The translations under genes and the position numbers were made by a program. Positions 4,384 through 49,564 of a stretch of DNA of 64,000 nucleotides are shown here, piece by piece (within the stretch, counting starts at the first letter, position 1; each line of letters begins with the position of its first letter). The notes under the pieces were generated by a model. It saw nothing but the letters and a program-made list of their open reading frames with translations. It ran no database searches and had not been told where the DNA came from. Origin of the DNA: Periconia sp. R9002 (Eukaryota > Ascomycota > Dothideomycetes > Pleosporales > Periconiaceae); contig JAMAHW010000086.1 in the NCBI GenBank assembly GCA_023627715.1, positions 124,001-188,000 on the forward strand, read 5' to 3'.

Positions 4384-7300
4384 ATGGCCTCGAACAACGG
4401 ACAGCCTCCACTCCGTTGCGCCGACTACCACGTCGCGTGGATCTGCGCTGTGGCCGACCTCGAGCTGCTGCCTGCGCGACTGATGCTTGACGAAGAATAC
4501 CCCATCCCGCCGTATAACACGTACTACGACGAGAATACGTACATCTGCGGCAGGATTAACGGCCATGCTGTCGTCATTGCAACCTGTCCGCAGGGTGAGA
4601 CAGGTAATGTTAATGCGGGGCGGCTAACAGGACCGCTATTTAAGACGTTCTCTAACATTAGGGTTGCGGCGCTCGTTGGAATCGGAGGTGGTATCCCTCG
4701 TGCTATTACCCCAGAAGATGCCCTTGACGACGTTCACCTAGGAGACGTGGTGGTGGGATGGCCCGGTGACAGGAAGCCGGCCTGCGTCTATCACGACCGC
4801 GGGAGGGCTAAGACGGGCGGCGAGTTTGAGATGGTGGGAACGATGCAGAACCCGGACTGGCGGCTTACCAGCGCGCTCGGTGTGTTGAACTCCAGGTACA
4901 GAGTTGTTTGTTATCGAGACACCACGTAGCGTGGTATATTGAGACATTCATTACTCATTGTATCACCCCTAGTTGGATTTAGCTGACTTTGTACCCGCGA
5001 TATAGGTGTTCTGGAGTCGGACCACGAACTAGGCCGGACCACGTTTAACGAGCAACTTGCGAGATTGCGGCAACACAAGGCAGAGAAGTTTGCGCACCCG
5101 GGCCTTGAGCACGACCGGCTTTTCAAGGCCACATACTCCCACGTCGGCGACTCCAAGTCGAGGTGCGCGGCGTGCGATAAGAGCGAAGTCGTGCAGCGAC
5201 CTGAGCGCAGTGAAGATAGCAAAGCCGAACTGGTTTTCCACCGAGGGCGCATCGCCACGGGCAACGCAGTTATTCAGGATGCTGAGTTGCGGGATGCGAT
5301 TAGCGCACGATGCGGCGGGGCGCTCTGCATCGAGATGGAGGCCGCGGGCGTCGATGTGAATAGACGCTGCCTAGTCATCCGCGGCATCTCCGACTATGCG
5401 GACTCGCACAAGAGCGACGTGTGGCGATCGCACGCGGCAGGAAAGGCAGCTGCCTTCACCCGGGAGTTACTGCTTAGAATGCAGCCAAGCACGGTAAATC
5501 AGATACAGGGAGCGGTTGAAGGTCAGTGAATCGTGGCTGGACAACAGGCACGAGTCGGTATACTGTGAATGACGCTCTTCTTCACAGTTAACCTATTATT
5601 TATACAATGTAATGACCCTGGTTAGGGACATCTCCGCTCGGACCCTTTACCGAGCCGCAGTCCTTCGTAGATCGAGAGTCACAGCTTGCCCAGACTGATG
5701 TGTACATTCCACGTGAGGATTTCGACTCCACATGCTCTCCCTCTAAGCGCCAAAAGATTGGTACTGTGGACCAGCAAAGCTATACAGTAAGCAGGCCTCA
5801 GATTCCGCACTCAAATAAAGAACGCCGACGATTACTGTTGGAAGAAGAGAGTTGTCTTAAATCGCTTGCATTTCTAGAACAAGAAAATCGATACAATGAC
5901 ATCCACGTTGCAAAGAACACCTGCGAGTGGCTATTTCAAAGTCAACAGTATCGAACTTGGATGGGCAGATTCCAGGGACTTTTTTGGATCAAGGGAAATC
6001 CTGGGGCTGGCAAGTCAGTTTTGATGAAACATGTTTTCAGAAAGATGTCAGAACAAAGCTCCAATCAGCTAGTCATCGCCTTCTTTTTCCACGGTCAAGG
6101 AGCAGAGTTACAAAAAACGCCAGTAGGCCTTTTCCGTGCTCTACTGAACTTCTTACTTGAACATTTTCCGGAGTACCTAACACAGCTAACTGCAAAATTT
6201 GAAGAAAGAGAAAAACGTTATGGATCATACCAAGAAGGTAGATGGCAATGGAAAGAGAAGGAACTGCAAGAGATATTGTTCAATGTTCTTACAGAAGGGA
6301 CACGAGAACAGCCTGTCATCATTTTTGTCGACGCCCTTGACGAGTGCGGTGAAGTCCCAGCAAGGAGCTTGTTGGCGTATTTTAGAGACGTAACAGAACA
6401 GGCAAGACAGAAAGGTGGTCTAGTCAGGATATGCCTTTCTTCCAGGCATTATCCGATTCTTAGCCTTCACTCGGTGTCAACGGTTACTGTCGAGGAGTGG
6501 AACGAGGACGACATCCGATGGTATACGCAGAATCAATTAAAGGATATACAGCCGAAGCTTAAACAAAAGCGAATCGAAGAAGAGATCTTGGCGAAAGCTG
6601 CGGGCGGGTTTCAATGGGTCTCTTTGGTTACTACAAACATTGTTAATAAGACCTTAACAGGCACAAAGGCAGAGACACTACTTCAAGAGCTCACGTGCTG
6701 TCCACAAACTCTAGGCGAACTGTACGCAGCGATCTTGTCCGGCGTCCTAGAAGCTCAGAAAAGTCAGATGGTAAAGGCTTTCTACTGGATCCTATTTGCG
6801 AAGAGACCCTTATCTGCACAAGAACTTCGGGATGCGCTTGCTACCGACAAGGACATGGCCTACACATCTGTTCGCGAGCTTAAAGCCTATGAAGGATGGT
6901 CTGACACACTAGCCGATTTCGAAAATTATGTCAAGCATATTTCCAAGGGCTTGATTTATTTTCAGAGCCGCGAGGTCTGGGAGCAGTACGTACCTGATGA
7001 AGAAGGCTCGGATCGCGAGGCCCAGCTTATCCACCAATCTGTGGCCGATTTTCTGCTGGATGGATTCCTTACCAAAGTTCATCACGATCGAAACATGTTT
7101 TTCTCTCACGCAACCGTTGGCCATTTTCAAATATCAAGATCCTGTCTTAGGTATATGCTATTAAAGGAGGTACTAGAAGAGACCCAACTATCGAGAGGAG
7201 CCTTTTCGTCGAAGTTTCCGCTGGCACCTTACGCCGTGCGATTTCTGTTCGAACACATTCACGAGGTAGAGCGTGGAGGCATTGTCCAGTCCGATTTGCT

Positions 7301-9275
7301 CTCAGTCCTACGGTGGACGCCAAAGTCTGAGCTGCTACAAAAACTTGCGAGGGCATGGAGGATTCTAGATCCTGGTAATGCTCACACGCCTGCAGGGTGG
7401 CCATTTGTGGAAGCGACGCCAATGCATGTCTTAGCGGCATTTGGTTCTAAAAGTGCCATCATTTCTATCATGGATACAACCACCGAGGTGGATGGAAGAG
7501 ACTTTAACGGAAACACTCCACTAATGCTTGCGATCAGAGAGGGACATCAGGATATAGCCTCTACACTGCTAGACTGCTCGCTTAATGATCGCGAAAAAAG
7601 CGGGCAGGTTGATAGCCAATACGGAACGATAGTACGCACAGCGAGTCCACTGTTAGATGTGAACGCAAAAAACAAGGATGACGATACAGTACTTGATATT
7701 GCAGTAGACCAAAGAGCTACAGCAATCATTCTCAAACTTATTGAAGCGGGTGCCGATCTCAAATACATGGAGCGGGAAACTGGTCTTGTTCGCCACACCA
7801 TCAGTAGTGGGAACAGGGCGCTTCTTGCCAAATTGATCGAGAGAAATGTCAATCTGGACGGAGCTGTGTATTTCGCATCGAAAAACTACCCGCTTCAGCA
7901 GGACCATAATCTCGATGTTCTTCGAATTTTACTCGAAGCGGGGGCGAATATGAAGAGGCTACCAGAATTGGACAGAGAGCCGGATTATGAAGATGACGAT
8001 GATGAAGATGACGATGATGAAGATGACGATGATGAAGATGACGATGAAGATGAGGACGACGATGCACTCATATTGGCATCCAGGCGAGGCATGACAGAAT
8101 TAGTCAACTTGCTCCTTTCCCACGGCGCTTCAGCAACTGCTGAAAACGAAATGGGGCAGACTGCATTGCTAGTTGCAACGCAGGATGGACACAAAGAAAC
8201 TGTTCGAGTTTTGCTAGAAAATGCCCCTTTCGTCATCGAAATGAAGGATAGTTTTACCAATTCGGCTCTAGATATAGCGTTTGAAACCGACCTAGATCTA
8301 GCTATACTCTTGATCGAGAAAGGGGAGTTTTCAAATCCAAGTTCCGTTCTACAAAAGTACTTCGTGGCGATGGTAGAGCGGGGAGAGATGGACTTCGTGG
8401 AGGCTATTCTACGAAAGAATACTGTCAATCCAGATCAAGAGCTTAAAGACAGCGGGAACACTCCTCTTTTGTGGGCTGCATCAAAGGGCCACGAGGGGAT
8501 AGTCAAGCTGCTGCTTGAAAACGATAACGTTAATGTCAATGCAAAGAATAGCAAAGGCAACACACCTTTATCACTCGCCGTAGAGAATGGCTACGAGGGG
8601 ATAGTCAAGCTGCTGCTTGAAAACGATAACGTTAATGTCAATGCAAAGAATAGCAAAGGCAACACACCTTTATCACTCGCCGTAGAGAATGGCTACGAGG
8701 CGATAGTCAAGCTGCTGCTCGGGACAGGTAGAGTTAATCTTAACTCTAAGAGCTACTACGGACAGACGCCGCTATGGTATGCGGCATATGAAGGACATGA
8801 GACAGTAGTCAAACTGCTCCTTAGTACAGGCAGAGTTGATCTCAACTCTATAGATAAGGACGGACGGACAGCGCTATGGTGGGCGGCATATCAAGGACAT
8901 GATACAGTAGTCAAACTGCTCCTTAATACAGGTAGAGTTGATCTCAACTCTATAGATGTGGACGGACGGACAGCGCTATGTGGGGCGACATATCAAGGAC
9001 GTGAAACAGTAGTTAAACTGCTTCTTGACACATGCAGAGTCGATGTTAACTCCAAAGACCACCGTGGATGGACGCCGCTGACTTGCGCAGTAGATCAAGG
9101 ACATAAAGCGGTAGTTAAACTACTCCTCGACACGGGCAGAGTCGATGTCGATTCCAAGGACCACTTTGGATGGACGCCGCTGTCTTGGGCAGAACATCAA
9201 GGACATAAAGCGGTAGTTAAACTGCTCCTCGACGCGGGCAGAGTCGATGTCGACCCCAAGGACCATCAACGATAG
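4384..9275 (+). CDS. PNP_UDP-NACHT-ankyrin STAND protein (fungal NLR-like)
   Basis: Exons 4384-4879, 5006-5521 and 5626-9275 join in frame to about 1553 residues. The N-terminal purine/uridine-phosphorylase-like domain shows GIGGGIP (about 99-105), IEMEAAG (about 274-280) and GISDYADSHK (about 292-301). A NACHT NTPase follows: Walker A GNPGAGKS (about 461-468) and Walker B IIFVDALDEC (about 568-577). A winged-helix/linker region leads to ankyrin repeats from about residue 940 to the end. An Asp/Glu-only stretch (about 1123-1150) interrupts the ankyrin array. Fungal proteins of this layout are thought to sense non-self or pathogen signals through the repeats and act through the N-terminal domain; whether this one has nucleoside activity is unknown. 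Intron 1 is an introner-like element. The last ankyrin units are nearly identical, and the array stops abruptly at TAG 9273-9275 with degraded repeat sequence after it, so the gene may once have been longer. Confidence 0.87.
4880..5005 (+). mobile_element. Introner-like element (ILE), intron 1 of the PNP-NACHT-ankyrin gene
   Basis: A 126-nt GT-AG intron. It starts GTGTGTTGAACTCCAG and ends TTTGTACCCGCGATATAG. It aligns without gaps to the 126-nt intron at 11436-11561 of the neighbouring STAND gene: I count 95 of 126 identical bases, with near-perfect match at both ends. The donor at 4880 was chosen because only this join keeps the PNP domain in frame (SALG-VLESDHEL), and the repeat boundary confirms it. 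Unrelated genes sharing a near-identical intron is the hallmark of ILEs. Confidence 0.85.
7985..8062 (+). repeat. GAT/GAC/GAA microsatellite encoding an Asp/Glu run
   Basis: A tandem array of units like GATGACGATGATGAA inside exon 3 of the PNP-NACHT-ankyrin gene gives an uninterrupted acidic run (DDDDEDDDDE type). It splits the ankyrin region in two and is likely to vary in length between strains. Confidence 0.85.
8491..8696 (+). repeat. Two tandem copies of a 102-bp ankyrin unit, apparently identical
   Basis: The bases from about 8491 recur with an offset of 102 (34 codons) from about 8593. I find no difference over a full unit. Both encode an ankyrin repeat beginning EGIVKLLLENDNVNVNAKNS. 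The following units (8697-9270) are also about 99-102 bp and strongly similar. Such recent copies indicate unequal exchange within the ligand-sensing array. Confidence 0.88.
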
Positions 9276-9783: not shown

Positions 9784-10311
9784 TTAAGGGTGCGACTTCT
9801 TGCACTTGTCGCCGAAGCGGCATTTTCCTTTGAGGAAAAACTCGCAAACCTCCTTCTTCTTCTGCACCCCATCACCCTGTGGGTGCAAGTTGCGGCACTC
9901 GTCGCCGTACTGGCACTTCCCCTTGAGGAAGAACCCGCACACCTTCTTCTCCCTCTTCTCCTGCACTGCAGGGTGGAAATTGCGGCATTCATCCCCGTAC
10001 GAGCAGTTGCCCTTGAGGAAAAATCGGCAGATTTCTGGAGCGTCCTCGTCTGAGGTGGACGAGGTGGTGGCGGTGTCGGAGGCAGCGCGCTGAAGGTTCA
10101 GCGGCACTGTGTAGTTTGCCTCGTAGTTGATCGATGTGTCGATCGTCACGGATCCAGCCGCGAGATATGTTAGGTAGACTTTGCGGTCTGCGTGCCGCTT
10201 GCTCTGGGATGCGGCAGAGAGTTCCTTCTCCATGGCCGTGACGGAGAAGATGTCGGCCCAGGCCTTGGGCTTTACAGGGGTGGTTTGGGTGAGCATGGTC
10301 TTGGATTTCAT
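9784..10311 (-). CDS. Small protein with three tandem CCCH zinc fingers
   Basis: 175 residues, no intron. The C-terminal half carries three near-copies of a C-x7-C-x5-C-x3-H finger: CRFFLKGNCSYGDECRNFH, CGFFLKGKCQYGDECRNLH and CEFFLKGKCRFGDKCKKSH, separated by about 10 lysine-rich residues. The N-terminal half has no recognised domain. Fingers of this type bind RNA, so a role in mRNA metabolism is plausible but unproven. The ATG at 10311 is used because the longer reading frame has only non-ATG starts; a second ATG lies at 10296. A TATATA at 10461-10466 sits about 150 bases upstream on the coding strand. The similarity of the fingers at both DNA and protein level suggests internal duplication. 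Confidence 0.75.
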   Translation of the reverse strand: MKSKTMLTQTTPVKPKAWADIFSVTAMEKELSAASQSKRHADRKVYLTYLAAGSVTIDTSINYEANYTVPLNLQRAASDTATTSSTSDEDAPEICRFFLKGNCSYGDECRNFHPAVQEKREKKVCGFFLKGKCQYGDECRNLHPQGDGVQKKKEVCEFFLKGKCRFGDKCKKSHP

Positions 10312-11154
10312 GTTTTTGTTTTGTTGTTTTTTTAGTAAACTTGGCCTGCAACTTAGATTGGTAGTGAGGAGTGTGGAAAGTTGTTTGAGGGGTTTGGTGT
10401 TTGTGTTGTTTGTGTTTTTGTGGGTGTTCTGATTCACTTAGGGAGGTTGGGATGGGTGGATATATAGGGAGAGGGACGAGGCATTGTGAGGGTTGAACAG
10501 CGTTGAGACGTTGTAAGGATAGGACAAAGACGTGATTATTATAAGGACTAGACAATGTCGAGACGTTGTTTAAGGATAAACATCGCACTGTGTGAGCTAG
10601 TACTTTACAATGGACACTTTACAATGGACATGATATGATCAATGTGTGTGACACCACAGATGTACTATGGAGGATGGTGGAGGTGGTGGGAGATTTGGTC
10701 GGTCTGGTGAGTTCGATGGGGCTGGTAGGTCTTGTTTTGCTGATTTTTCTGCTGCATCTTCCTCAAAGGCGATGATTTGGAATCTCTCGTTGATAAAAGT
10801 AAACGCTCTCGATCCGGGCAATCGGAACTTTGAATGTTATTGAGCTGCCGTAAAATTGGGTCCACTCTTCTTCTAAATCCCATCATCTTATGCTTTTATA
10901 TACTGAAAGTAGTATCTGTACAAGGTCAACAAGTTTCACACACAGCGAGTCCATAAAATCTTAAAGTTTCCTTAGCCAGATGCGGGGTATATAGGTTGTA
11001 GGTGGTGGAGGGCAATCAACAATGCCTCAACAGGTGAAATCAGGTGGGCGAGGGTATATATATGCCCTGCCTGGTGGAGCAAACATAGAGAGGTCATGTG
11101 ACTGGGGTATCAAACCAACCGGGTATCTTGGGAAGCAACACCAAATTCAACCTC
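10312..11154. other. Intergenic between CCCH and DUF7708-NACHT genes
   Basis: Contains the CCCH promoter and the 3' flank of the minus-strand STAND gene. Short direct repeats are visible around 10495-10625, where variants of GTTGAGACGTTG and TTTACAATGGACA each occur twice. No gene is supported. Confidence 0.45.
10461..10466 (-). promoter_or_regulatory. TATA-like element upstream of the CCCH gene
   Basis: TATATA on the minus strand, about 150 bases before the ATG at 10311. Inferred only from position and sequence. Confidence 0.4.
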
Positions 11155-23727: not shown

Positions 23728-26700
23728 TTACACCTCCAAAACGTCAACAACACCCTCCCAATCCCCACGCTCCCTGCACTCCCAATACCCTTCCTTTCCA
23801 CTCTTCAATCGCCAAATCTCCTCCCCTTCACCTAGCGCGCCCGCCTCAGCAGTCTCAACCTTCTTGAACCACTTCGGCGTCCACTCCTGCCCGTGCTCCT
23901 CCATGACCTTTCTGCGGCCGCGCTGGCGCTCTTCGAGCCTGGCTTTGAGCCCCTCGGCGCGATCCATGTCGCCTTCCTCGGCGGCGCGCTGGTCGGGTCG
24001 TAGTCGAGAGTCGGTTGGGGGGAGGTGGGAGTCTTCGATGGGGGTAATCTGGTTGAGGGAGGCAGCGAATGTGGTGAAGCCGTAACGGGTGGAGGGCTTA
24101 TCGACGAGCGCACCCGTGGTCCAGATGGGGGGTTGTTTGACCTGCCCGTTGGTTGTGAGGTGCAGTTCTGAGGTCCATTTGCCCTGCGCCCCGACGGGGA
24201 GAGGTGCGCCTGTGTGGTCGAAGACTTGCACCGTGACTTCCTCGCTGCGCCCCGCGAACATGCCGCCGGCCTTGAAAGTGCAGACGGCTTTTGCGCCCGT
24301 GGTTTCGGATACGATGGTCATGGTGCCGGTGGGCTCCACGTACTTCTCTCCGGCCATGACGTTGCGCATAAAAGATGTTGCAATGTTCCACGAGTAGTGC
24401 TCGCCTGCGTCGTGCAGGAAGATGCGCACGCGCCCGTCTGTGTTGATCTCGTACGATTTGCCCCAGAACTTCTGCGTCGGCGCGGGCGACTGGATGAAGG
24501 TCCAGTTTTGGGACTCGGCGTGGCAGGCCATGCGGAGCGGGCGGTGGAAAACCTTTTCGGCGATGAAGCGGAAGCCCTTGTCTTCGCGGACGAGCTCGAA
24601 CGTTTCGCCCAGCAGGGGCGTGTATGGCTTGCGCATTGCGCGGTCTTTGACGCGCATATTACTGAAACTGGAAATGGCAAAAGCTGCCAAGTATACCAGA
24701 CGCTCCCCTGTTTGGCTGGGTGCAGTCACGGCGGCATCGAGAAGCTCACTATACTCGAGCTGTTCGGCCACACGCTGCACAGCGGAAATGGGTTCATTGA
24801 ACGTCACAGGCATAGCTATAGTAGAGAGATCTTTGCCAACGTTTTTGCGTAAAAAGGACATGAGACTGGGTGGAGGCCCATTGGACGGGGCAATAGTGGA
24901 GCGACGTTGAACCGGGTCGTGGGGAAGGGGCTTCAAAGATGTAGGCTTGGTAGGGAAGAGGGACGGTTGGACATCGAGAGACATGCGCTGGTCGAAGAAG
25001 CCTCCGCCTTCATGTTCGGACGAGGATTCCGATCCTCCGTCGGAGACATCTTCACGCACATTGTTCTCTCCGCTGTCCCGGCGAATGGTAAGCAGCTGCG
25101 ATTTTGAAGTATCGCCGTCGACAGCATCGAAGAACTCATCTGCGGACTCGAATGATTCGATACTATTACGGGGAGAAGGAAGTGCAGGTGTCCGTCTTTG
25201 CCGGCTTTCCGCCAAAAGCTCTGAAAATCCCTTTACCACCGAGTCGAGATCTCTCAACAAGGCCATACAATGATCATGAATGGCTTCTTCTTGCGTTTGG
25301 GCTGCCGTACCCAAGCGGCTGTTACGTTTAGGGACCGCCAGAGCTCCGTTACCGGGCAATGGAGGGACAGGAGGAATCGAGCCGGGCGATGCAACAGCTG
25401 TCTGGGCAGACACACTTCTTCTAAACACGCTGGACGGGCTCTGGGCTCCCGAGGAGCTCGCTTTTCGTTTCCAGAACGACTTCTTATCTTTCTCGTCGCC
25501 CGCGGGGAAGTAGTCAGCAGATTCAGCTTCGGAGGGACTGGGCGAGAGGCTGTCCTGAGCCCCCTTGAGACCTAAACCCGTTGCTGCAGATGTGTACTTT
25601 GGATCTGTATCCTGAGCCAACCTCCTCAAAGCATCCCGGGTTCCTGCCACCCGTCCGACTAAAGCTTCAACTCTTGCCCATTCGCTCTCCTCGGCCGCAT
25701 TGACAGTATGCGATCCGCTTCCCGCCTGATTAGAGGGAAGACGTGCGGCTGGCGATGCTGCCGTTCCTGCACTCCGTGAAGCGCGATCGAGAGCATCCTT
25801 CCACATGTTAAAGTCCTTCATGTTGCTAGCCCGGAGCTGCCAGACTTCGGCACCTGAGTCCACAGATATCTCTCTTGTCTCCTCGTTGGCCCCTACGGCG
25901 GCGAGCGAGAGGGGAATGGCGCCGCGAAGGGCAGACGAATGATCATTGCGATAATATGACAGGGTGGAGGATGTGAAATCGAGCGAGAAGAAGCGCCTCG
26001 CGTAGCCTTGATTCCGTTTCCTCCTCTTCTTATGCAACACACCTGTAAGGAAGGATGGACCTAGCGAAGGAGCAGCGTTGGAGGATACGTAGGACGATTT
26101 CGGGCGGTCGTTGAGGGTATGAGATAGAGATTCGGACGATTCCACGGCCATTGGGCCCATTCCAGGACTCGCTTTGCCAAGACTAGTGGTGCTTACTCCT
26201 CCCAAGGCTTGGTTGTAATGTGTGTGGTGACCCGACTTGGGGGCAGCATTGGTGGGATATGTCATGAGAACAAAGGTCGCGGTCTTGGATACCGTCTTGG
26301 AGAAGGTATTGTCAATGACCAGGCCGTACATGCCACCCTCTCCTTCGGGCACGTCATAGGTGCCCATGGACACTTTTTCAGCCTCACATTTGCCAACCCA
26401 ATGGACCTGCTTCAGGCCAATTGCAGAGAGTTTTTCCAGCACAAATGTTTTGTCATTGCGAGAGGTGGAGAGGCCGCGGCCGCGAGAGGTGGGGACTTCA
26501 AGCGCAGGGGTGGACGGGGGGTCGAGGGTTGCGGAGGAGGTGGAGTGCGAGGTGATGCCGTTGGCGGCGCTGGGATGTTTGAAGACGCCGAAGTTGATGG
26601 ATTTCTTATGGGGCTGTATGCTCCAGGAGATGGTGTGTCCGGCAGCTACGTTGACCCAGCGGACAAGGTAGGACTAGAAAGAGTGAATGTTAGCCGTGGT

Positions 26701-36022: not shown

Positions 36023-38810
36023 ATGGGTGAGGTGAGTGCCGTGGCACAGGGCGCTGCACATGCGGAGTTCAATGTATATGCACCGTCATTCGTTCCCGAA
36101 GTATACAGGGCGATCAATGAAGAGAGTGGAACGGTGGTTACCACTGATTCGAGACACCGGATTGACTACTCAAGATATTCCCAAAGCTTTGTAGGATCCG
36201 CATTCTTTCCTTTAAGGCAGCCCGTGACAGACCAAAAGTTTGACTGTCACAGTCTGTCGGAGGCTCGCTACCTAGATTATTTCTCAACACAGCTGGATTT
36301 GGAGAAGGCTGCAAGGGTTCGCGAGAACGAGCAACATGCGTTGTATAAGGTACTGCTGCAACGTTACGTGCAGGATGACCAAGAACTGTTCACTATCCAA
36401 GTGCCCGGATTACGAGAAGATAGTCCGCTGATCGAAATGGGAGATACCATACAGCTACGACCGCTTTTTGTTGACGGGTATGGGAGCCTGTCCGACATTT
36501 ATTTACTCTTCAATTACATCCACCCCGCAGTTCGTAACTTTCCCCGCCACTGGACTGGAACGATTTGGAACGCCACGGTGCAATACGTTCACAGAGCTTC
36601 AGAAACCGTTTATTTACGAGCAGAAGGCCTCACCGAAACTTGGATAGGGAACGTATGCTTTGCGCTTTTTGTGAATGTTGTTTTTCCACAAAAAGAAGAA
36701 GCTATTCGAGTAACTCAAGAAGCTTTAACTTACGTCAGTTGTCTATTGAATGCGGACAGTCTTCTCAAAGGACCCACCGAAAAAACTCAAGATAGGGCCC
36801 GAAAGTCAATGACTATCGATGATGTCACCCATGGTGAGAGCAGCTATCAACTTCAGTCTCAGAATGGAGAAGGCAGCCATTCCGATATCTCCCCATACCA
36901 AAGCAGTTGGATACGCAAGATCCTCTTCCCCGATGAGTTTGATGGTCAGTGGCAGAGGGAGCTGCGTAGTCATCCGCTCCGTAATCTTTTCGATTCCCAG
37001 CTCAATTACGAGCAAGTCCAAGCTGTTGATTCTGTATGCAAGAACGACTATGGTACACTTCCGTATTGTACGTATATAATCTGGTTCAGAGTATCATCTC
37101 TAGAGATCACTCGCGTGGTGTTTGAGATGGCCCGAAGCCAATGGGTCATACCTGTTTGAACTTCATTGACATTGAAATTTAGGCATATCTGGCCCGCCAG
37201 GAACCGGAAAGACAAAGACTTTGGTCGAGATAACCATGCAGCTACTCAAAGACCACATAGTAGATCACATCCTCATTTGTGCTCCTTCGGACCAGGCCGC
37301 AGACACGTTAGCTCTTCGCTTGAAAAACTACCTCAGTGCCACACATCTATTCAGACTGAATGGCCCCTCCAGGGATGAGAGCGAGGTACCTAGAGAACTT
37401 CTAGGCACGGATCACGTATACATGGAAAACGGTCTATTCTACCTCCCGCCTTTCCAAAAACTCATGCAATACAACGTCGTCGTCACTTCCTGCAGGGATG
37501 CATCTATCCTCATGCAAGCACGATTGACCAACGCAGACCTTTGGATAATAGAGCGAGGAATGTTGAGTTCGATTCATCCAGAACACCAAATTGCACCTCC
37601 TCCATTGCATTGGGGTGCTTTGCTTGTAGATGAAGCAGCACAAGCTGTAGAACTTGACGTGCTCCCAGCCATTAGCGTGATAAGCCCACCTGCAAATTAT
37701 CCAACGGACAGATTCCAACCGCGTTTCGTCATGGCGGGAGATGAAAAGCAACTCGGTCCACGAACCGCATCTCGCGACCCCAACTTCTCCCGCTCCCTCT
37801 TCGCCCGGCTCCTCGAGAGACCACTTTACAAAAATCACCCACTGTCGCGCGCAAACATGAAGCCTTCGACAGACCCACCAATGTTGACAAAAGCAAAGCT
37901 GCCAATCCTCTACCCACCCTTCGCAAATCTGATCCGCAACTACCGTTCCCACCCGGCCATTCTCAGCGTCCCCAGTTCCCTCTTCTATAACGATACGCTA
38001 ATTCCCGAGAAACCACCCCCATCCTCAACCACAAAACTCTCCTCATGCACCCTCTGGCAAGGCCGCAAATGGCCTGTTCTTTACGTCCCCAACACCAGCG
38101 CCGACGATATCGAACGCGAGGGCGGAGGATGGTACAACTACTCGGAAGCGATGCAAGCCTGCATCATAGCGGAGAAACTCATCACAGAAGCAGACGTCCT
38201 CCAAGACGACATCTGCATCATGTCCCCCTTCGCCGCGCAAGTGCGAGTCCTCCGAACACTGATGCGCTCAGGCGCCTACAGCGGCATTGCTGGTGGGAGC
38301 GAGGGCTACTGGGGCGTCAACATCGGTCCCGTCGAGGCCTTCCAAGGCCTCGAAAAACGCGTAGTCATTCTCTGCACTACGCGATCCCGCCCCTCCTTTG
38401 TCGACGTCGACGTCGCGCGCGGGCTTGGGATCGTCAAGTTCCCGCGCAAGATGAATGTGGCGCTCACGCGGGCGATGGAGGGGCTGGTGGTGATTGGGAG
38501 CCCGGATGTGCTGGGCATGGATGAGGAGTGGAGGCAGTTGCTGGCGTTCTGTGCGAGGAACGGCCTAGTGCAGAAGGGCGGGAGTGGTGTTGATGGGTTG
38601 GGGGAGGAGGGAAGGGTTGGAGTGTTGGAGAGGGCGTTGGTGGCGAAGGAGGGGGTGGGGAGGAGGAGCGGAGGGAGGGTCCTGGGTGGTGCGGTTGGGG
38701 GTAAGGATGACGGGGAATATGAGGCGTGGGTTGAGGAGTTGAGGGAGGCGATCGAGGAGGAGTTCGAGGGAGAAGAGGGGGAGGAAGAAGAAGATGATGA
38801 TGATGAGTAG
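36023..38810 (+). CDS. SF1 RNA helicase of the MOV10/SDE3/SAD-3 type
   Basis: Exons 36023-37067 and 37183-38810 join in frame (GTLPY-C-ISGPPGTGKT), giving 890 residues. Helicase motifs appear in order: I GPPGTGKT (about 352-359), II LLVDEAAQA (DEAA at about 498-501), III GDEKQLGP, IV NYRSHPAI, V VEAFQGLEKRVVI and VI NVALTRA. The DEAA box and the spacing place it with UPF1-like SF1B helicases; the MOV10/SDE3/SAD-3 branch works in RNA silencing and, in Neurospora, in meiotic silencing. The C-terminus is Gly- then Glu/Asp-rich (ends EEEEDDDDE). The ATG at 36023 has a good context (AACAAAATGG). The same frame stays open upstream to a TGA at 35876-35878, and before that is again open for about 60 codons; see findings. 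The role in silencing is inferred from family only. Confidence 0.87.
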
Positions 38811-39845
38811 TAGTAGAATATTCGTATTTGTATCTGTAAAGCAAAGAATTGGATCGTGATAAGTAGGATAGTTGAATGCTTTATGTGAAATCATTGAATA
38901 AAAAAAACCGCACAAACATGCATGGATGCACGCATGCTTGAAAACACGCTAAATAGTAAAACATTGCTACCAACTTAAATATACACCAAAATCACTGGAT
39001 CGCTAGATGGTATTCTGTCCCAAGAAACATCTTACGTAGGTACCAACGGGTGTCATTGAATATCGCGATTCACCACGATAGTACTTTTCGTTAGTTTGAA
39101 ACTTCAAATAGCATATCACGAGCTTCCAAACACCGTTTAGAGGTCTTAGATTGATTTTAGAATAACGAACACGATTGAGGTAGAAGTTTGGTTCCAATGT
39201 TAGCATATTTGATCCAGGTATCCTATTATACCCACACGAGCTGTTGCACTCTTTTCGCCCACTGGGATGTCACTCGATATGTTTCGCATGACGAACGGCT
39301 GCATGCTCCCCCCTTCTATCTGGGAGGATATTGCTTGTCGTAAGTCGAACATCTATGCAGGGGTCCTGAAAGATTGTGTCTGGGATGGGATAGTCAGCCT
39401 CAATCCAGAAGGGGAAAGAAAGGTATGTGTGAGTGAAGGAGAGAGGGGTAGAAAAGGTTTAATACGACCATTAGAAAGTTAGTAAGTAACTAAGCAACAA
39501 TTGCCAAGGATGGGATGGATAGTCTATTCAAAGGAGAGCTAGAGGTTTTTTTAAGGGAAAAACTAAAGAGGGATGATAGGGAGGGGGCAGGTGGCGGTTC
39601 CATTGTCTTATTCTTGGTTTCTCCGTCTGAAATACGTGGGAAGATTCACTACGAGGAAAGACAAGCAGAAAAGCTCCGCTCCTTCCTCCTCATCATGCTC
39701 TCTCCCCCTCGCCAGAACTCATTTGCCCTCTTCATATCCCTCACAATCTTGCACATTAAGCACTCCGTTAAAAGCTTTGCCGCGTCCCTCCAGACCGCCC
39801 CTGCACGCGACTCCTCAAGTATGTCCCTCCCGACTTTCAGCAGTC
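38811..39845. other. Intergenic, no supported gene
   Basis: 3' flank of the helicase gene, AT-rich to about 39260, and the 3' flank of the first small Cys/His gene. ORFs seen here carry no motif. Confidence 0.45.
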
Positions 39846-40286
39846 TCAATCTCTCCATACTATCGGCGGTACAAGGTCAAAGTATGGCGTTTTCTTCCAA
39901 TAGTCGAGGTATAACTCCTCAATCTCTTCAGCACTTTTGCCGCGGTTGTATTCCTGCTCTGCGTAGCAGGTCACGCAGTACGCTGCGAATATGCGCTTGG
40001 TCTGGCGGATGACCTCGTGGCCGGGTTGAGAGCGCACTTCTTCGGGGCAGATGTCGCCTGGTTTGGGCGGGTATTCGGTGTAGTGCGGGCAGAAGAGGAC
40101 TAATGAGGTCGTGTGTTAGTTAGGATTTGATTTCCGGGTTCAGCTAAGGTGCAGCCTGGCTCTCTCTACAAAGTCATTTGTGCGTTTGGTTGTGTTGGGC
40201 GTAGGGTTTTATAAGTAAGTCCCTTTTTCTTCGTCGGATTTCTTCTTTGCAGTTTACGTACATTGTTTATTTTCAACCACACACAT
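39846..40286 (-). CDS. Small Cys/His-rich protein, family member 1
   Basis: Exon 1 is 40262-40286, 25 nt (MCVVENKQ plus one base). Exon 2 is 39846-40099. The 162-nt GT-AG intron is in phase 1. The protein has 92 residues. After the joint Phe the sequence reads LFCPHYTEYPPKPGDIC, then a Cys pair YCVTC, then an acidic/aromatic helical tail with EEIEELYLDYW. It matches three neighbouring genes in exon-1 length, intron phase and order of Cys, His and Pro-Pro. No signal peptide or membrane span. A TGA just upstream in frame fixes the ATG. C-x-H...C...C-x2-C could form a small zinc site. Function unknown. Confidence 0.68.
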
Positions 40287-42042
40287 TTTTGTTCAATAAT
40301 GTGTTTTCCGGGTTTTTTTGTTGCGAGTTGTGCTGATTTGACAGCTTGTTCTGGAGAACTTGTCAACGATATGTAGTCTTCTCAGAAGATCACACGCAGG
40401 AGAGGGCTGACTTGATAAGTGAATAGCTTTTGGGTGTGCCTGCTCATAAATAACTGTCAAGAAAGCTGATTCTTTGATCGTGATATCAATGTAGGCAGCT
40501 TGTTTGCCCTTTTCGATGCGAATAAGGGTTAACGAAGGATTCCCAGGCAGGATTTCTGCTCTTTTGTGGACACCCTGCGATCACACCGTCGCAAAGAAAG
40601 TGCTGAAATTATTGGATGTTGAGAAGAGTGATAGTAACAAAGTACTACCTCAGAGGCGCCACGATAGTGACCTAGAAGGTTGGCGCCCTCCACTGCCTGC
40701 ATAGGCAGTAGCTCCCCTGATTGTCCCTTACACATCGTGACTGAGTCGATACCTTAATGGGAATATAAAGATCATCGGCACAAACAGCCACGTTGCGTAC
40801 AATATTAGCACAATTATGTAGCGCCAAGCCGTCTTTTTCTGTGAAGACAAACACATATAAATCGTGGGGTCATCACGAGGACATATTCACAAGGTAGAAA
40901 GTAACGCATTAAGGACTGGTGTCAATCGCGTGCAATCGAATGAGCGCCGAACACATCAACGCACTCAGAAAAAGGAAGGAGCAAAGGAGGGGTGGCGATT
41001 TCCGTAACCTTTCCAGGTGCAGCTGAATGGGTTCACGGAGCAGTCTTCAGGTAACGATCCGATTCAAGTATTGCCATCACATGAATAGTTTTCACTAGTG
41101 AATGCTACAGTCTGGTTGGAAATTTGCAACAGACACTCGAAGTCCCACTGGGTTGGATCGGTTTTCAAGAACACGGAATTATACATGGTAAGGCAACAAC
41201 CGTTCTATTGGGTCTGCGCGAGCAAAAATCACAAGTTGATGTGGCTACTATCCGTTCGCTGGTATAATGCCACTAGAAATTCGTGCACATGCATGTATGC
41301 GCATTTGAGTAACGACATCAGAGTGTAGTTCATCACACACCCTATCATTTCAGCTCGGACAACGCACCTGGGCAATTTTCATAAACTATCGACAATTCTT
41401 CGGTGTTATGTTGCAACGCGGGAAGCCGCGGTCTATTCCACTCTTGCTCGGGTCACCTTAGTCTCAAAACTACAAGTGAATTCTCAGACCAGCGGTTCGC
41501 CAGGCACATCACTGGTTGTACATATGCTATGGATACGCATCTCAGGTGCACAGCAGACCATTAATTGAATATGGGGTATGAGGTTGAGGATTATTGGCTC
41601 TAGTTCCAACACTGAATCTGAATCGTGGCTTGAATGATAGAGAAAGTAGTCTACTATTTCCCACATGACATTCATCCGTTACAGTAGCCCCGCACATCTA
41701 TAGCAAGTGCAGCCTATTAACGGCTTGGAAAAGCTAGCTTGCGCGATAGAGAGAATAGTGAGTTGTCATGTGTAACACATCGATTTACGTTCTTGAAAGA
41801 GGGTTTCATGGCTCCAAAACTCCGAAATGCGTACCTCCGTACAAATATCAGCTGTGAAAAGGTAGGGTGCTTCACTTCTGAGGGTATCACATTCAACACA
41901 GAAATTATCGGGACAACCATTTATCTACGAAGCTCACACAACCAACAGGTATGTCACCTTCGCCGTGTATTGGTCGAGTTTTTTTGGCTACCTTTTTTAT
42001 GCATTAATGACAAAAAAACTTGTGGCAAATACTGTACAAACC
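40287..42042. other. Intergenic between members 1 and 2 of the small Cys/His family
   Basis: The two flanking genes point away from each other. ORFs at 40504-40704 and 41098-41328 show no family pattern; I looked for the 25-nt Met-Cys exon here on both strands and found none followed by a donor. Confidence 0.4.
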
Positions 42043-42481
42043 ATGTGCAAAAAATGGTACGACTTCTGTACGTGTACCTCACAACAAGAATAGACCCTCG
42101 AAACATGCATTCTCCAGTCTCAAATGACGAAATCCACACAGACAACTAATTTCATAGCATGCTGACCCGCATCAAGTCAACAGTTGCGGGCACTGGCTCC
42201 ACAATAGTGCACCGCCAGCCATTTGCCTAGTCAGCAGACAATGCCCAAGCAACCGCAGAATGGTCCCTCATGTACGCCGCCAGTGGTTTACGAAGTGTCT
42301 AGCCTGTCTCAACATCGACTACTTTCCCTATTGGGCGCCCTATAGAACATGGATTTCAGATACCACAGTTGAGTTCTTTAGCCAGCAAGTGGAGAGGGAA
42401 AATCGGGAGAAGATGGAGAGGTTGATGATGATTCGTAGGCAGCGGAGGGAGGAGAGACGAATGAGGTGGGAGCAAGGTTGA
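42043..42481 (+). CDS. Small Cys/His-rich protein, family member 2
   Basis: Exon 1 is 42043-42067, 25 nt (MCKKWYDF plus one base). Exon 2 is 42177-42481. The 109-nt intron is GT-AG (TTCT|GTACGT ... ATCAAG|TC). The protein has 109 residues. Exon 2 opens NSCGHWLHNSAPPAICLVS, then QCPSN, then the pair KCLAC, and ends in a highly charged helix (Glu/Arg/Met-rich, probably coiled coil). The layout is C-x-H-x7-PP-x2-C, as in members 1, 3 and 4. An alternative acceptor seven bases downstream (CAACAG|TT) would need a different donor; the chosen join gives the F-x-x-C-x-H spacing shared by the other members. Function unknown. Confidence 0.68.
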
Positions 42482-43960
42482 GCACAGCGCGTAGGAAGAC
42501 ACTCGAGGAAGCGCTCGGGACTCTATTTGGCACAAGGATGCTAGGCAATGAAACTGAAAAGTCGGAATTGTGTTCGGGCTTGCGCTTCGATATGGGCAAG
42601 TTATATTCATTGGCGGATATACTCTAGCATATATAGCAATTACCGAGTGAGTCAAGAAAGCAGAATAGCGGTGGAGTCTCAACACTCATGATGTGTCAAA
42701 CGCTAGTGTTCCCCATTTTCTTTTCCTTCCATGTTACTCAAATCATTGGTTTGTGGTAGAGGGTGGATGGGTTTATCGAAAAATCGTGGATCCGCAATAA
42801 CGTTATGACTATTTTACCTTCTCTGTTAAAGTTCAAGCGATTTAGATTATATGCACTCCCATAGATAAGATGTCTTTGTGATCAGCTATATGACATAACT
42901 CATCAGGAGCACATAGATTTTTTGGGGGGGCGATTCTTCAAATTTCTATTCCTTGAATCATTCAACATTCAAGTAAACACTTGGTAAAATACATAGTTTG
43001 ATAGCTAGCTAGATATCTAAAATTAGGTAGCTGAACAGGCCTGCCGTTTGCGTGAGACTCATTTTCTCGTAGGGTATGACTGCGTGATTTACTGTAAGCC
43101 TTAGGCCACTTCCCAGCTACACATGTACTACATTGGATGTAAGTTGGGTAACCTACATGAGGGGCGAAAGCCGATATGAGTGATATGACGGTGGATGAAT
43201 TCAAGCTAGGGCTGCCTTCGTAGGGGTAAAATGGGCGTTGGTTGAAGGGAGGGGTCGACATGTCTGGAACATGTCGGGGATGCTTTTCATTTTTCTGATA
43301 TGAATAAATTGAACATTGAGATTGTATACGGCTGGGTGCGTCTGCGAATTCAAAGAAGAATATATTATCGTATAAAATTTTGATATCTTTTGGTGATCTC
43401 ATCAGTAATAATTCACGAAAATGTCATCCTGGGGACATGTGCACTTGGTGCCTGTGTATGTCAAACCATGCATTGGGTATGGCAAATTGATCATTGGTTA
43501 ATGGATGTCATACAGAATGTGTGCCTGACTCTGGTATGACTGAGTTCAACAACAGTAATCGGTAGGCTGAAGAGGGACGAATCGAATTAGTACGACGGTG
43601 TGGGCTTAATAGCACAAGTGCGGGAGAGGTATAAGATGGTTTTCATGCCCTCTGAGCGTTTATGTTTGCATCATAACCGCAACAAAAGCTTATAGCCTGC
43701 AGATCTAGGAAGCTACATCCAACACAGGCTTTTTGAGAATATTCTTCAGACGCATCAGTAAGTCTCTGCCCCCGGTACCTACGACAGTCTTGTTATGCAT
43801 GTCACCTTCTCTTGTGTTTTATGTACTAGACTCATCGTCCCAACATGGCAACGCACACGTTCGACAAAATCATCTTCAACCAAGAGAATAAGACACCGCT
43901 AATCAGTTTACTCGTCCTGATTACCAGAAAATCGCAAAGGACACACCTCCGTTACCACCC
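42482..43960. other. Intergenic between members 2 and 3
   Basis: A 146-codon minus-strand ORF (42962-43402) includes a Cys pair but lacks the family start and the C-x-H motif, so it is not called. The region 43740-43960 is the promoter side of member 3. Confidence 0.4.
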
Positions 43961-44373
43961 ATGTGCAAATCATTCGAAGATATCTGTACGTATATTCCAG
44001 AGAAAGCGAGCGCTTAGCTCAAGCGATCTCATGCCCATAGCATGCGCAGAAGCAAAAATTGTGAACGTGCCCAAACAAATACTAACACCGTGTATCTACA
44101 GACGCAGGCTGCTGTCACACCTACCACGTCCCTCCTCCAGAGATATGTAATCCATACCAGCTTTGCCCTACCAACGGTGTAGCCACCTGCTATATCCGAC
44201 ATTTCTATCGTTACAGTTGCTCTATTTGCAATGGGGATACGATAGATCTTACGACAGAACAGTTTCAGGTTATAAACATGCCAAAGTCGGAATTTTTAGA
44301 GCGGAACAGGGGGAGCTGGAAGCACCCGTGGTTCATAGAGGCCCTTGAGAGAGCAGGTCGGGGCTCTGTGTAA
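43961..44373 (+). CDS. Small Cys/His-rich protein, family member 3
   Basis: Exon 1 is 43961-43985, 25 nt (MCKSFEDI plus one base). Exon 2 is 44102-44373. The 116-nt intron is GT-AG, phase 1. The protein has 98 residues. Exon 2 opens AGCCHTYHVPPPEICNPYQL, then CPTN, then the pair YSCSICNG, and a tail with KSEFLERNRGSWKHPWFIEA. Exon 1 is nearly the same as in member 4 (MCKNFEDF). The frame is open upstream of the ATG, so a longer start is possible, but the ATG is at the same place as in the other three. Function unknown; no secretion signal. Confidence 0.7.
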
Positions 44374-44895
44374 GCTGCAGGTAGAACAAACTGGGGTTCT
44401 GTGGAAGCTGACGGCGAATAGGGTTTCAGGACAGCGCTCAGGGAAAAAGTCAGGGCATGACTCAGGTCAGCTACAGAGCAGGGCTCAGGTCAGTAAAATA
44501 TACGTATTGCCTGTGAGGTCTAGACCCTTGAGATAGACACATTCAAAGAGCGCCGGGCGTGCTTCAAGGAAGAAAGCATGCAGTCATGTGCATAGAGAGT
44601 AAAGACGCTTGCGCAGGCGATGTGTTTTTCTACAGAATTATTGGAGTATATATATATATTTAAGCATGTTAAATTCTTCCACCATGAATCATACCACATA
44701 TCCGTCTACAAGATCACAGTAAGCTCACCTACTCTTCCCTCCTATCCAAATTTATCTCCGCTGCGCAATGATTAAGTGTAGATGGACATTTCCACAACAT
44801 TTCCTAAATCCATCCATGACCCACTACAACACCCTCTTAGCTAAAAGTACCTAAAACTCGATCCCCAACCCTTCCCCCACAAACTCCTACCCCCA
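44374..44895. other. Intergenic, short tandem repeats
   Basis: At 44350-44490 GGGCTCTGTGTAAGCTGCAG is followed by GGGTTCTGTGGAAGCTGACG, and CAGGGCTCAGGTCAG variants recur. These look like small local duplications at the end of member 3. A TATATATATA run is at 44648-44660. Confidence 0.5.
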
Positions 44896-45305
44896 TCATC
44901 CCCCCCTCGCATCAACCGCATCCCTCGCCGCAGCAATCATCCGATCCCTCGCCATCAAAAAATTCAACTTGTTCTGCCATATAGAATCATACGGCGCGCT
45001 CCCAATATCCGCCTGCACGGGAATGCAGACATAGCACAAACACCAATACCGGTACCGAACGTATGGGACGGGTGTGTGGCTGGTGCGACAGGGGTTCTGC
45101 GGGCCGCAGAAGATGGGGGGCCGCACGTGGGCGATGAAGTGGTTGCAGGATTCGACTGGTGAGGTGTATTAGGGGGGGTTTGTTTGTGTGCGGGGGGGAG
45201 AGTTTTAGGGGAGGAGGAAGGGATGGGGGGTTTGTGCGTGGGGTTTATGGTGTTGCTGGGGAGGGGAAGGGAGGACTGACAGAAGTCTTCAAAGTTCTTG
45301 CACAT
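44896..45305 (-). CDS. Small Cys/His-rich protein, family member 4
   Basis: Exon 1 is 45281-45305, 25 nt (MCKNFEDF plus one base). Exon 2 is 44896-45155. The 125-nt intron is GT-AG (TTCT|GTCAGT ... CACCAG|TC), phase 1. The protein has 94 residues. Exon 2 opens ESCNHFIAHVRPPIFCGPQN, then PC, then CLCYVC, and ends in a helical basic/acidic tail (NFLMARDRMIAAARDAVDAR). It is the closest relative of member 3 in exon 1 and in the H-V-x-P-P segment, and lies tail to tail with it 0.5 kb away. Function unknown. Confidence 0.7.
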
Positions 45306-48300
45306 GGTGATGAGTGGAGGTAGTTTTTTGTGGTGGGATAACTTATATCAGAACATTATCAGTGATATCCAAATCTCAAAATGAAACTTTTCAGTGCAGA
45401 GCTTACCTGTCTTAGACAAGAAAAACTTGTTTGATTCGTGGTGTTAGACTTCTATGTTCTTCCTGTGTATATTGCTTCAACAAATATTGCAAACTCAAGA
45501 TGAAAGATAAAGAGTAGGAGAACAAGAGTTTGAGGACTTGGAAACTCTCCTTTATAGACAGATGATGCGTCCTCGATTTGCCAGATATAAAAAACTTGGT
45601 GAAACCTGACAACTCATACCGACATCCATCACATGAAGCACTGTCTCGAAACGCACCAAACCTCTTCATGCCACGTAATTAGACGTTACACCAGCCAGTG
45701 GCAGAGCAATAGAGTAGGGAGAGCTGAAGGTGTGTTGTCCCCTCAACTCACTCTACTATCTGGATTCAAATATATTTGCGCGTGTCCGTGTTACGGTATA
45801 CCTACGCAGAGCGACGAAAGGTTACGCCACGTAATCTCCCATGTTTCTGGTTTGTCCTTGGGTATGTATGTGCACGTAGGTATAAATAAACAACTAGTGA
45901 GTCATGTGGTGTGCAACGATTGACCCGTGTGCACGTCCCAGCCGCAGATGTCTTTCCAATGTATTGCTATAATTTCTTTTCACAAAATTGGTGAACATGT
46001 GCTACAAGTTACCGAGAATGCATACAGCCTGGTCAAGTACTATTTTGCACCTTCTTTTCTGTGCCGATATCACAAATTATCTCATTGCTCTGCCATGATC
46101 TCGTTCCTGTTTCCATGCAATCAGTAATGATATTCAGGTACCTTGAGTGATCCCAGAACATATTTGTATATCACTTACACGCATCTGTTCCAAACTCCTT
46201 ACGGCGAAGAATAGAGTTTTCAAGCCCAGAATCTTAGGGTGCTCATACAACTAATTGCGTGCACATCCACAGTCTAGATGTTTCTATGACTGGCGATTTA
46301 CATCGAGACGGCGAGCAGACATCCTTTCGCGATGATATACTTATTCTTTCGATCACTCCAGCTAGGTTGGTAAGACGTACAAAGAACCCCGCCAGTAACC
46401 TCTTAATCACAAACTGAACACATACGAAAGACCCAGGGTCAACCAACTACTATGTCGATTTCAATTTTACTCTCTTGCCTAGAATATTTTCCCAGCGTTG
46501 AACGAGTAACGTCCTTACTTCATCAAAAGAAGCACTCATGAAAACCTCCCGGCTCCCAAATTACACATGCTTGTGCACCCAACCTCGAAAGTATGCCCTG
46601 ATGGAAGAAGCATGTGGCCACTGTTGATGTTCTTCTTTTTCTATTTACTCGCTTTGTCTACGGCCTGTGGTTGCCTTTCCCCGTCTGAGCTTCTACCATA
46701 GACCTCCATCTAGATGCTCTCTACACTCCATCTTCAGATCATCGGTATCATTAGGAAGTGCAATAGTAGAGGGTCTCCTTGGATCAAGGAACAGTCTGTG
46801 ATAGACGTTGTCAATACAAACGTGATTAGTAACTTCAGGCTAGCTCCACTTTGGTCGCGGTGCAGATCACGTGATAGAAGATTAGTAAGAAATGCCAAGC
46901 CCGCGTCAGATGGCTTGTTTCATGACCAGAACGCCGCAATCCACCGCGCCTCGTCGTCGACTGATGAGCAACTACTCCTCAGTATACCTTTCTACGTCAC
47001 AAACACCGTGATGGCGTACCCCAGAGCCGAAAGCAGTTGACGAGAGGGCATCACAAAGAGCAACAGGGCAAGCAGGGGTCCGGCGAGGCATTACGTGTGA
47101 GCATCAATCATCGGCGGCCAATGAGAGGAGGGGCATTGTCCTTATCTCTTGGACGGTTTGGGCCCCACAGGCGCGCGAGAATTTGCGGGGAACTAAGGCC
47201 GGGCTAGAAAGGCGTGGTTTTTGCCGACATCGCAACCCATTCGATGTCATTTGTCGCCATGCCAATCTACTTGGCACTGGCAGCGAATACAGCACAAACA
47301 AACACGCAACTCTCGCTGGCATTATTCACGCCGTGGGGTGTAGCATCGGCTAAATGGCAGCAGGAACACGGGAGAAAGCAGTGGGTGGAAGAAGCATGGC
47401 CAGGCCTGCACCGATGCGAACGACGATGCGCGGTGGTTATCTTGAAGCATGCAGGTCCTCGTTGTGCAGCCGCAAGCTACAGAAAGTACGGCAGATTGGG
47501 TTGCGTGCGGTATTAAATCGGCGGCGCGGAGGCGGTATGACTACAGCCATTGCAAAATATACCGCATGTCTGTCCAACTTGATGCAATTGAAAACTCTAC
47601 ACGGCCTAATGATTCATATTTACCTAATGATCGTGGGAAATGGCAGATCTTGTTTGAGGAAGAATCATCGAAGACATGGAACAACGACCGACTAGCTAAA
47701 AATAACGCACACGCAGGCGGAAGACTAAACACGCCGCACCCACTCGGCTAGCCAACCATTGGCAAAAGAAACCACAATATTGGCCAGAAAGAAAGGGGTT
47801 CGATGAGTCGGGAGACCCCAAGGAGGCTGTTCGTCATGGAGGGACAACATGAAGTTTTTAAATGAACGGTATTGTACAAGGCTGTAACTACTGTAACTAG
47901 TTACAATACCTACGGATATCAACTGATGAACTTCGTAAAGAGTGTTTGACCCCTCCAGTCCAGGCCGTCGCTGCTGACTGGATGCTGACTGGATGGCGGG
48001 GCTTATCTTATCGCCACCCTGTGCACAAACAAACATGAACCGCCTCACGACCGTTCACGATACCTGATCTACTAGCAGGCCGACAGTAACAGATTGCAAA
48101 AGTACCGAAATCAAGAATGACCGTTAAATTTAGTAACCTGCGACCGTCTGAGGATTAATAGGTACCGATTAGGGTATTGAAAGGGGCCCCGGCTTGGACA
48201 GAAGCGGCGGCGGCGGCGCACACGCGGCGATGCTTCCCGAGGGCAAAGCGGTCAAAAACGGTAAAAACACACGTCTTCAATAAAATTCACTCATGGACAG

Positions 48301-49564
48301 CCGCGCCCAACCGGCTGTACGGAGGCTATGATCGTATGTACCTACGTAGTCATGTATTGTATGAGCGTTATTTTTCTCTTTTCTGGTTCCTTTGTTTGAC
48401 CCTGGCGTCTTTGTCCTGGACGTGGCTGTGCTTATTGCTTTGTTCAGCTGGTTGCAGGTCTCAGGCAAACCCTATGTGAGGTCTGCATCGGACCAGACCC
48501 CACCCCAAGCGACGGGAGGGGAATACAGCACGTCGGTTCGCTGGGTTTCGGTGAGAATGTATTGGTCCCTCTATTCAATATCCGATCGCTGCATGTGTGA
48601 ATTGTAGTTGATCAATAGTTACTTACACAAATGTCGAAAGAAGAGAAGAATACAGAAAAAAAAGTACCATGGAGTTAGGGCGGAATAGCAACAGGGAGCG
48701 ACTATCGGACTGGTAGAGTATGCAATGCACAGTTCTGTACAGCATAGTACAGCGGACCGAAGAAAAAGATGAATAAAATGGGGGTTTTGGATTTGGGTTT
48801 GGAAAGAATGGGGCTGGACCGTCAAAAATGTATGAGGGATATTCTTCTGCGCCCCCATCCGAGAGTGCGGTTCAACAGAGACAATCATGCAGTTGCATTG
48901 CTTCTTCTCGTATTTTTATCTTTCTTGGGCGCAACTCAATATGTCCAACGCTGCTGCTTCTGCTTACTGGCAGTGTACGTACGCATGTAAAATACAAAGA
49001 AACACGGTCTAACTGATGAAAATAATTTTTTGGAGACTACTGTACTTCATCCCACGGGCAAGCCCAACAGAGCGGGCGGGCGCGGCGACGGGTCTTGGCC
49101 CAGGCCCGTGAATGGCACCAATCTTCCCACCGTAACAGTAAACTAAGAGTAATAGATAGTGGCTATAGAGTGTAGTGCTGGTATCAATGCCCTCTACGCT
49201 ACCTAATTACTTACTCTTGTCTCAGCCCGCCCCGCCACTCGACACAACCCAGGCACACAGGCTCACACTCCCTGCACCATTCCAACCCGACGACGGGTCC
49301 ACGCAACTACTTAAGGATCCACGCCCCAGATCCCCTTATCTTCCCACTCCACTCTTCCCCTTGCAACCAGCTTCCGTGGCTTGTTGCCTCTTGACCATCG
49401 TGCATCTTTTAGTTATAAACACTCAACTCTCTGCCCCTCCTTCTGCCTCTTGATTCTCCTCCTCATCCCCCTCCTCCTCGTACCACTTCCACTCCACGAG
49501 AACCCTTCAAAACCTCAATACCCCATCCCCTTATACCCACATCCACACACATATCACCGCAGTC
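45306..49564. other. Long gene-poor stretch
   Basis: About 4.3 kb without a gene I can support. ORFs of 60-110 codons occur on both strands but none shows motifs, conserved patterns or good exon joins. The segment from about 49180 is C-rich on the plus strand and should be the promoter and 5' UTR of the glutamine synthetase gene. No tRNA or rRNA was recognised by eye. Confidence 0.45.

Follow-up and report, generated by a model that had tools for sequence, protein, structure and literature searches.

The stretch of Periconia sp. R9002 considered here (the window) comprises 64,000 nucleotides, bases 124001-188000 of the 190,173-base contig C86, and contains four small genes, A to D, each with a two-exon model. 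Gene A lies at 39846-40286 on the minus strand and encodes 92 amino acids, gene B at 42043-42481 on the plus strand (109 amino acids), gene C at 43961-44373 on the plus strand (98 amino acids) and gene D at 44896-45305 on the minus strand (94 amino acids). Three of them (B, C and D), and probably all four, are related genes without a known domain that are clustered together. Their divergence is such that little apart from the small first exon and some cysteines and histidines can still be recognised. Searches described below as genome-wide cover the 42.9-Mb genome.

The first exon of every gene is 25 nucleotides (nt) long and encodes eight residues plus one nucleotide. In gene A (minus strand), exon 1 (40262-40286, MCVVENKQ) is followed by an intron of 162 nt (40100-40261, GTACGT...CTAAC...TAG) and by exon 2 at 39846-40099, the 3' end of which is uncertain. 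Gene B (plus strand) consists of exon 1 at 42043-42067 (MCKKWYDF), an intron of 109 nt at 42068-42176 (GTACGT...CTAAT...AAG) and exon 2 at 42177-42481, and gene C (plus strand) of exon 1 at 43961-43985 (MCKSFEDI), an intron of 116 nt at 43986-44101 (GTACGT...CTAAC...CAG) and exon 2 at 44102-44373. In gene D (minus strand), exon 1 at 45281-45305 (MCKNFEDF) is separated from exon 2 at 44896-45155 by an intron of 125 nt at 45156-45280 (GTCAGT...CTAAT...CAG). All four introns are in phase 1 and split codon 9, which specifies an aromatic residue in each gene, and each has a CTAAY branch-type site whose A lies 13-27 nt from the intron end. Stops in the frame of exon 1 occur in the introns of A, B and C, while that of D is stop-free but shifts the frame. 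The acceptor of gene B, AAG, is less usual than the TAG of A or the CAG of C and D, and is supported by homology with D. The start of gene B is not unique, as an in-frame ATG occurs 12 codons upstream, at 42007; in A, C and D there is no in-frame ATG between the start and the upstream stop. An initial annotation of the window had proposed these four models, with first exons of 25 nt, phase-1 introns and products of 92-109 residues, and all of this is confirmed. Its N-termini, however, were listed in the order opposite to the coordinates: MCVVENKQ belongs to 39846-40286 and MCKNFEDF to 44896-45305.

The four reading frames are uninterrupted, and an alignment of the four proteins has invariant positions at M1, C2, C12, H14, P22, C25, C49, C52 and one lysine of the tail. 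B, C and D carry one cysteine more than A in the N-terminal module, between the cysteine of C25 type and the C-x2-C pair. The initial annotation saw no secretion signal, and this is borne out by hydropathy: over the first 44 residues of A-D the 15-residue Kyte-Doolittle mean peaks at 0.28-0.51, and no signal-peptide-like stretch was found by this measure, with no dedicated predictor applied.

To what extent such an architecture arises by chance was gauged with a strict grammar, which consists of ATG-TGY, an exon 1 of 12-60 nt, GT, an intron of about 44-260 nt with a CTRAY-type site, AG, and a protein of at least 50 amino acids matching MC-x(4,14)-C-x-[HC]-x(5,25)-C-x(5,40)-C-x2-C. The window contains four start sites that satisfy it, those of A-D, each with a 25-nt solution (B also allows 29 and 31 nt), whereas 60 first-order Markov windows together yielded a single start, which had no 25-nt solution. 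The grammar was devised after the four genes had been seen, and the chance figure is therefore a guide only; with a grammar thus made post hoc, the four-gene architecture exceeds chance. A looser grammar without the branch point adds starts at 40299 (+) and 55658 (-) in the window, the strict grammar yields one spurious model among the fetched loci (L044), and ATGTGY-N18-TGTNNG is unenriched genome-wide, with 249 places against 233 in a reversed control.

The relationship among B, C and D is the firmest part of the analysis. With D as query against the whole genome, exon 2 of B is found at an expectation value (E) of 0.0015 and exon 2 of C at E = 0.0075, followed by places on contigs C101 (0.105) and C5 (0.21). 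Conversely, exon 2 of D is found genome-wide by the C query at E = 0.0102 and by the B query at E = 0.0031. Shuffling of exon 2 alone gives z scores of 11.9 for B-D, 10.5 for C-D and 5.9 for B-C. Over the first 52-53 codons, identity at codon positions 1/2/3 is 0.60/0.49/0.38 for B-D, 0.60/0.58/0.42 for C-D and 0.46/0.50/0.37 for B-C, so that positions 1 and 2 are better kept than position 3 in all three pairs. Many identical residues (M and W excluded) are specified by differing codons, namely 10 of 18 in B-D, 11 of 20 in C-D and 8 of 15 in B-C. No similarity is seen among the introns of these three genes (z of -0.6 to 0.1; the highest of the six pairs in the A-D set is 2.1, for A-D). Exon 1 is 0.68-0.76 identical among the three genes, compared with 0.30-0.34 in intron bases 11-60. 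When 38800-49300 was searched for repeats without regard to genes, the sole direct repeat reported with a length of 25 nt or more was formed by the first exons of B and C with their flanks; of the three inverted pairs reported, two match exon 1 of D, one with that of B and one with that of C. By these comparisons B, C and D are certainly homologues, the codon positions indicate that they are under constraint at the protein level, and no other stretch of them is conserved as well as exon 1 with its Met-Cys. The earlier claim of a shared, far-diverged family thus stands for B, C and D through searches, shuffles and codon positions, and for gene A is probable, by architecture only. The same evidence bears on the suggestion that A-D are open frames that arose by chance, or remnants of dead genes. 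No database protein matched them in a search by shared five-residue words, as might be expected of such frames, but the grammar control, the splice signals, the codon-position conservation in B-C-D and the four uninterrupted reading frames make this explanation very improbable.

Gene A matches B, C and D in its 25-nt exon, its intron phase and its ligand spacing, and it has the same donor hexamer as B and C. Its exon 1 has little beyond ATGTG in common with theirs. Gene A is probably a member of the family, by architecture and position only. Its 3' end is uncertain because another frame is open downstream: past the stop of A this frame continues for some 70 codons, and several weak second introns could join A to it. 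A frame of 69 codons at 39649-39858 on the minus strand (MERLRLLKVGRDILEESRAGAVWRDAAKLL...) overlaps that stop. Either A is spliced a second time and its helical tail is longer, or the frame is a separate small gene or due to chance.

A further candidate lies on another contig. Gene E is a single-exon gene of 249 amino acids at 103082-103831 on the minus strand of contig C22 (locus G000:C22:102293-105493, L121, with its start at locus position 1539). Its N-terminus, MCFRVFTDWYCGH, is followed by three more cysteines, a C-x2-C pair, a long charged helix-like stretch, the sequence KKRKR and an acidic tail. The gene was picked by eye among loci retrieved with exon-2 patterns and then confirmed by the strict grammar; the pattern through which it was reached contains no start codon, yet the protein starts with Met-Cys at the same distance. 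Among 3000 shuffles, the score with gene E was reached by 20 for A and 6 for C, as against 778 for B and 1652 for D, a resemblance to A and C but not to B or D. A profile of A, B and E lists D at E = 0.014 and C at 0.13, a weak result in that B itself is in the profile and an unrelated frame stands above D at 0.0069; one of A, C and E lists B at 0.15 and D at 0.51, which is likewise weak, C itself being in the profile. Gene E is probably a fifth, intronless member. The initial annotation spoke of a local family with a constant 25-nt exon, and both terms hold within the cluster. As rules for the family they are not proven, because gene E, whose membership is only probable, is intronless and lies on another contig; if it is kin, "local" and "constant exon" are true of the cluster alone. 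The family as a whole is thus probably neither strictly local nor always provided with the intron.

The genome was also searched with patterns for other relatives. The 25-nt-exon pattern with GTANGT occurs at 39 places, compared with 25 in the control; 30 of these were taken as loci and seven were fetched, two were discarded because exon 1 contained a stop, and among the 39 only A, B and C fit. With the GTNNG pattern, 100 of 249 places were listed (30 loci, 41 fetched, nine already in the set and 20 dropped by eye for an exon-1 stop), and these 100 contained no further member with a 25-nt exon. Of two exon-2 patterns, the first occurs at 33 places (control: 20) and the second at 17 (control: 28); of these, 33 of 33 and seven of 17 were fetched, and gene E is the one probable member among them. 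The place on C101 was rejected, having one stop and E = 0.105 with the D query, as was a place on C18, which has E = 0.12 with gene E as query and is antisense to a frame of 270 amino acids. Near position 216063 of C5 (L045, 1492-1689), a short frame, IVCIPSSSCGTSFTPVPYIRRR, has 23 residues like the middle of D, at the genome-wide E of 0.21 given above. Among 4413 open reading frames it reaches E = 0.00015, in a set that includes the frame because D had found it. It is a possible relic of the family, or due to chance. A locus on C24 (L093, G000:C24 about 270256-270275, minus strand) reads FLRCGHFF...CPDCQRPI followed by a helix-like stretch; by eye it looks like a zinc finger of a different sort and was set aside, and a Met-Cys exon was not found upstream of it.

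The reading that we favour, and to which we would give about an even chance, is that a small family arose here by local duplication with inversion and is diverging fast under protein constraint, and that its product is a putative intracellular zinc knuckle with a docking helix. The N-terminal 50 or so residues, with Cys2, C-x-H, a further cysteine, the extra cysteine of B, C and D, and C-x2-C, would form a small zinc-bound knuckle. The charged C-terminal helix would dock on a protein or nucleic-acid partner, and positions apart from the metal ligands would be free to change. RING, treble-clef and zinc-ribbon knuckles, like A-D, have their ligands paired as C-x-H and C-x2-C within a short module, although A-E match no Pfam model at its cut-off. 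The modules of A-E are predicted, on the pattern of their cysteines and histidine, probably to bind zinc.

Several observations weigh against this reading. Richness in cysteine is no proof of zinc. AlphaFold models from exon-2 alignments have a mean predicted local distance difference test score (pLDDT) of 52.6 and 53.3; in the model with D only the C-terminal helix is confident, from residue 57 or so of the exon-2 fragment, and in the model with C first (mean 53.3), which does not count as evidence, no residue exceeds 70. Both are too poor to show whether C-x-H and C-x2-C meet. Further, the comparisons of A with B, C and D are insignificant in shuffles (z of 1.1-1.6 for exon 2 and 1.3-1.7 for the whole protein), the A-D identities by codon position, 0.40/0.36/0.49, lack a coding pattern, and the B-C-D profile scores A at E = 1.6, 16th in its list. 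That profile does not list gene E at E of 5 or below, a profile of A and E lists none of B, C and D at the same threshold, and as genome queries, short queries included, neither A nor E finds a family member but itself. The shuffles of exon 2, the codon positions of A-D and the two profiles missing each other's members would all suit a narrower account in which only B, C and D form a family, while A and E are unrelated and reached a zinc-knuckle-like pattern by convergence. Gene A, however, lies 1.8 kb from B and shares the 25-nt exon, the phase, the ligand spacing and, with B and C, the donor hexamer, and no 25-nt grammar model appeared in the 60 random windows; we regard such convergence as unlikely.

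The claim that no named domain fits was upheld. Pfam-A has no model at cut-off for A-D or E, the best matches below threshold being DUF5595 for A (E = 0.059), YunG for C (0.072) and the Rtf2 RING for E (0.073). A profile search of the PDB gave nothing for the A-D profile and, with gene E, MORC2 only (E = 0.14). In the protein database, the four-protein alignment had 32 candidates with shared words and none at E of 10 or below, and D alone had no candidate with three shared five-residue words. As a positive control, the oxysterol-binding protein frame at 23728-26673 on the minus strand matched 1405 proteins; among the 120 listed Periconia macrospinosa stood first with 93%, and a P. digitata protein is 85% identical. 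These identities place the host among the Pleosporales, near Periconia. The database therefore covers proteins of two Periconia species, and, since the search requires shared five-residue words, its negative result argues against near annotated relatives, not distant fungal ones. Prokaryote contigs searched with E gave 57 pattern matches and viral contigs searched with the alignment gave 124, none of them confirmed; the viral pattern is a peptide pattern that spans the intron, which makes that search insensitive to spliced genes. A description of the A-E family was not found in the open-access papers searched, where the strictest queries are weak negatives. Unannotated fungal proteins of the form MC...[FY]-x-C-x-H...C-x2-C, with a similar start and ligand order, may exist elsewhere and are a lead only; the family searches returned none. 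It is doubtful, though conceivable, that fungi have a large superfamily, as yet without a name, of intracellular zinc modules that start with Met-Cys, and that the cluster and E are what can be seen of it; the N-terminal cysteine would be functional, acting as metal ligand or as redox- or oxygen-labile degron, and divergence would have left only gene structure and ligands.

A close parallel in fungi is offered by the Y/F/WxC candidates of powdery mildew, whose sequences have diverged although a gene structure with one intron in phase 1 is kept; in 51 of the 54 genes studied this intron, of 45-76 nt, is found at 218-329 nt from the start (PMC2886064). Like A-D, they are short, lineage-specific and very diverged, and have an aromatic residue close to a cysteine on the N-terminal side. 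In contrast to A-D, which lack a signal peptide by hydropathy and have introns of 109-162 nt after nt 25, the Y/F/WxC proteins as described there carry signal peptides. The Y/F/W-x-C motif itself is absent from A-D, where L, N, A and E stand two residues before Cys12; only gene E has W-Y-C. By signal peptide, by motif, and by the position and length of the intron, A-D thus fall outside the Y/F/WxC group. The parallel in kept phase-1 structure (PMC2886064) nevertheless lends something to the idea that A-D are effector-like proteins, released by unconventional export and aimed at a plant or a competing microbe, with an arms race driving their divergence; the genes are also small, Cys-rich, diverged and clustered. 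The absence of a signal peptide by hydropathy and the charged helical tail argue against this, as do the KKRKR stretch and long acidic tail of E, the probable relative, which are a weak hint that action is in the nucleus or cytosol and not by secretion. On balance an effector role appears improbable, and slightly more so than convergence.

Because exon 1 with its Met-Cys is best conserved in B-D, the N-terminus is suggested to matter, as ligand or otherwise. One such role would be that removal of Met exposes an N-terminal cysteine that serves as a redox- or oxygen-labile degron, the products being short-lived regulators. In plants, Met-Cys N-termini are reportedly targeted by a Cys/Arg N-degron branch (PMC11773813). 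Met-Cys occurs in four of the four genes and also in E, although the pattern that led to E did not require it, and the conservation of exon 1 in B, C and D is in keeping with this role. Cys2 could equally be a metal ligand, however; there is no sign here that the host fungus oxidises N-terminal cysteine; the sequences are few; and Met-Cys is partly why A-D were noticed, while exon 1 of A shares little else with the others. A degron is accordingly a distinctly remote option next to the zinc-knuckle family favoured above.

The cluster is flanked on one side by a UPF1-like helicase frame (37176-38810, AAA_11/AAA_12) and on the other by glutamine synthetase, of which 50691-51257 matches Gln-synt_C and an earlier exon was seen by eye. 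Elsewhere in the window, translations read by eye show frames at 4216-9275 (+) resembling a nucleoside-phosphorylase-like, NACHT and ankyrin-repeat protein, and at 9784-10437 (-) a frame with three CCCH-type repeats, C-x7-C-x5-C-x3-H. Past the window the contig runs on for another 2.2 kb (G000:C86:188001-190173) and stops in very AT-rich, repeat-like sequence.

Finally, the cluster is a small but good example of a fungal family in rapid divergence and not a new category. Clustered, fast-diverging fungal families without signal peptides are easily overlooked by gene predictors and by effector screens based on secretion. If expressed, the genes would provide a compact case in which membership can be traced by gene structure once sequence similarity is nearly lost, and a ready system for asking whether the invariant Met-Cys start matters.

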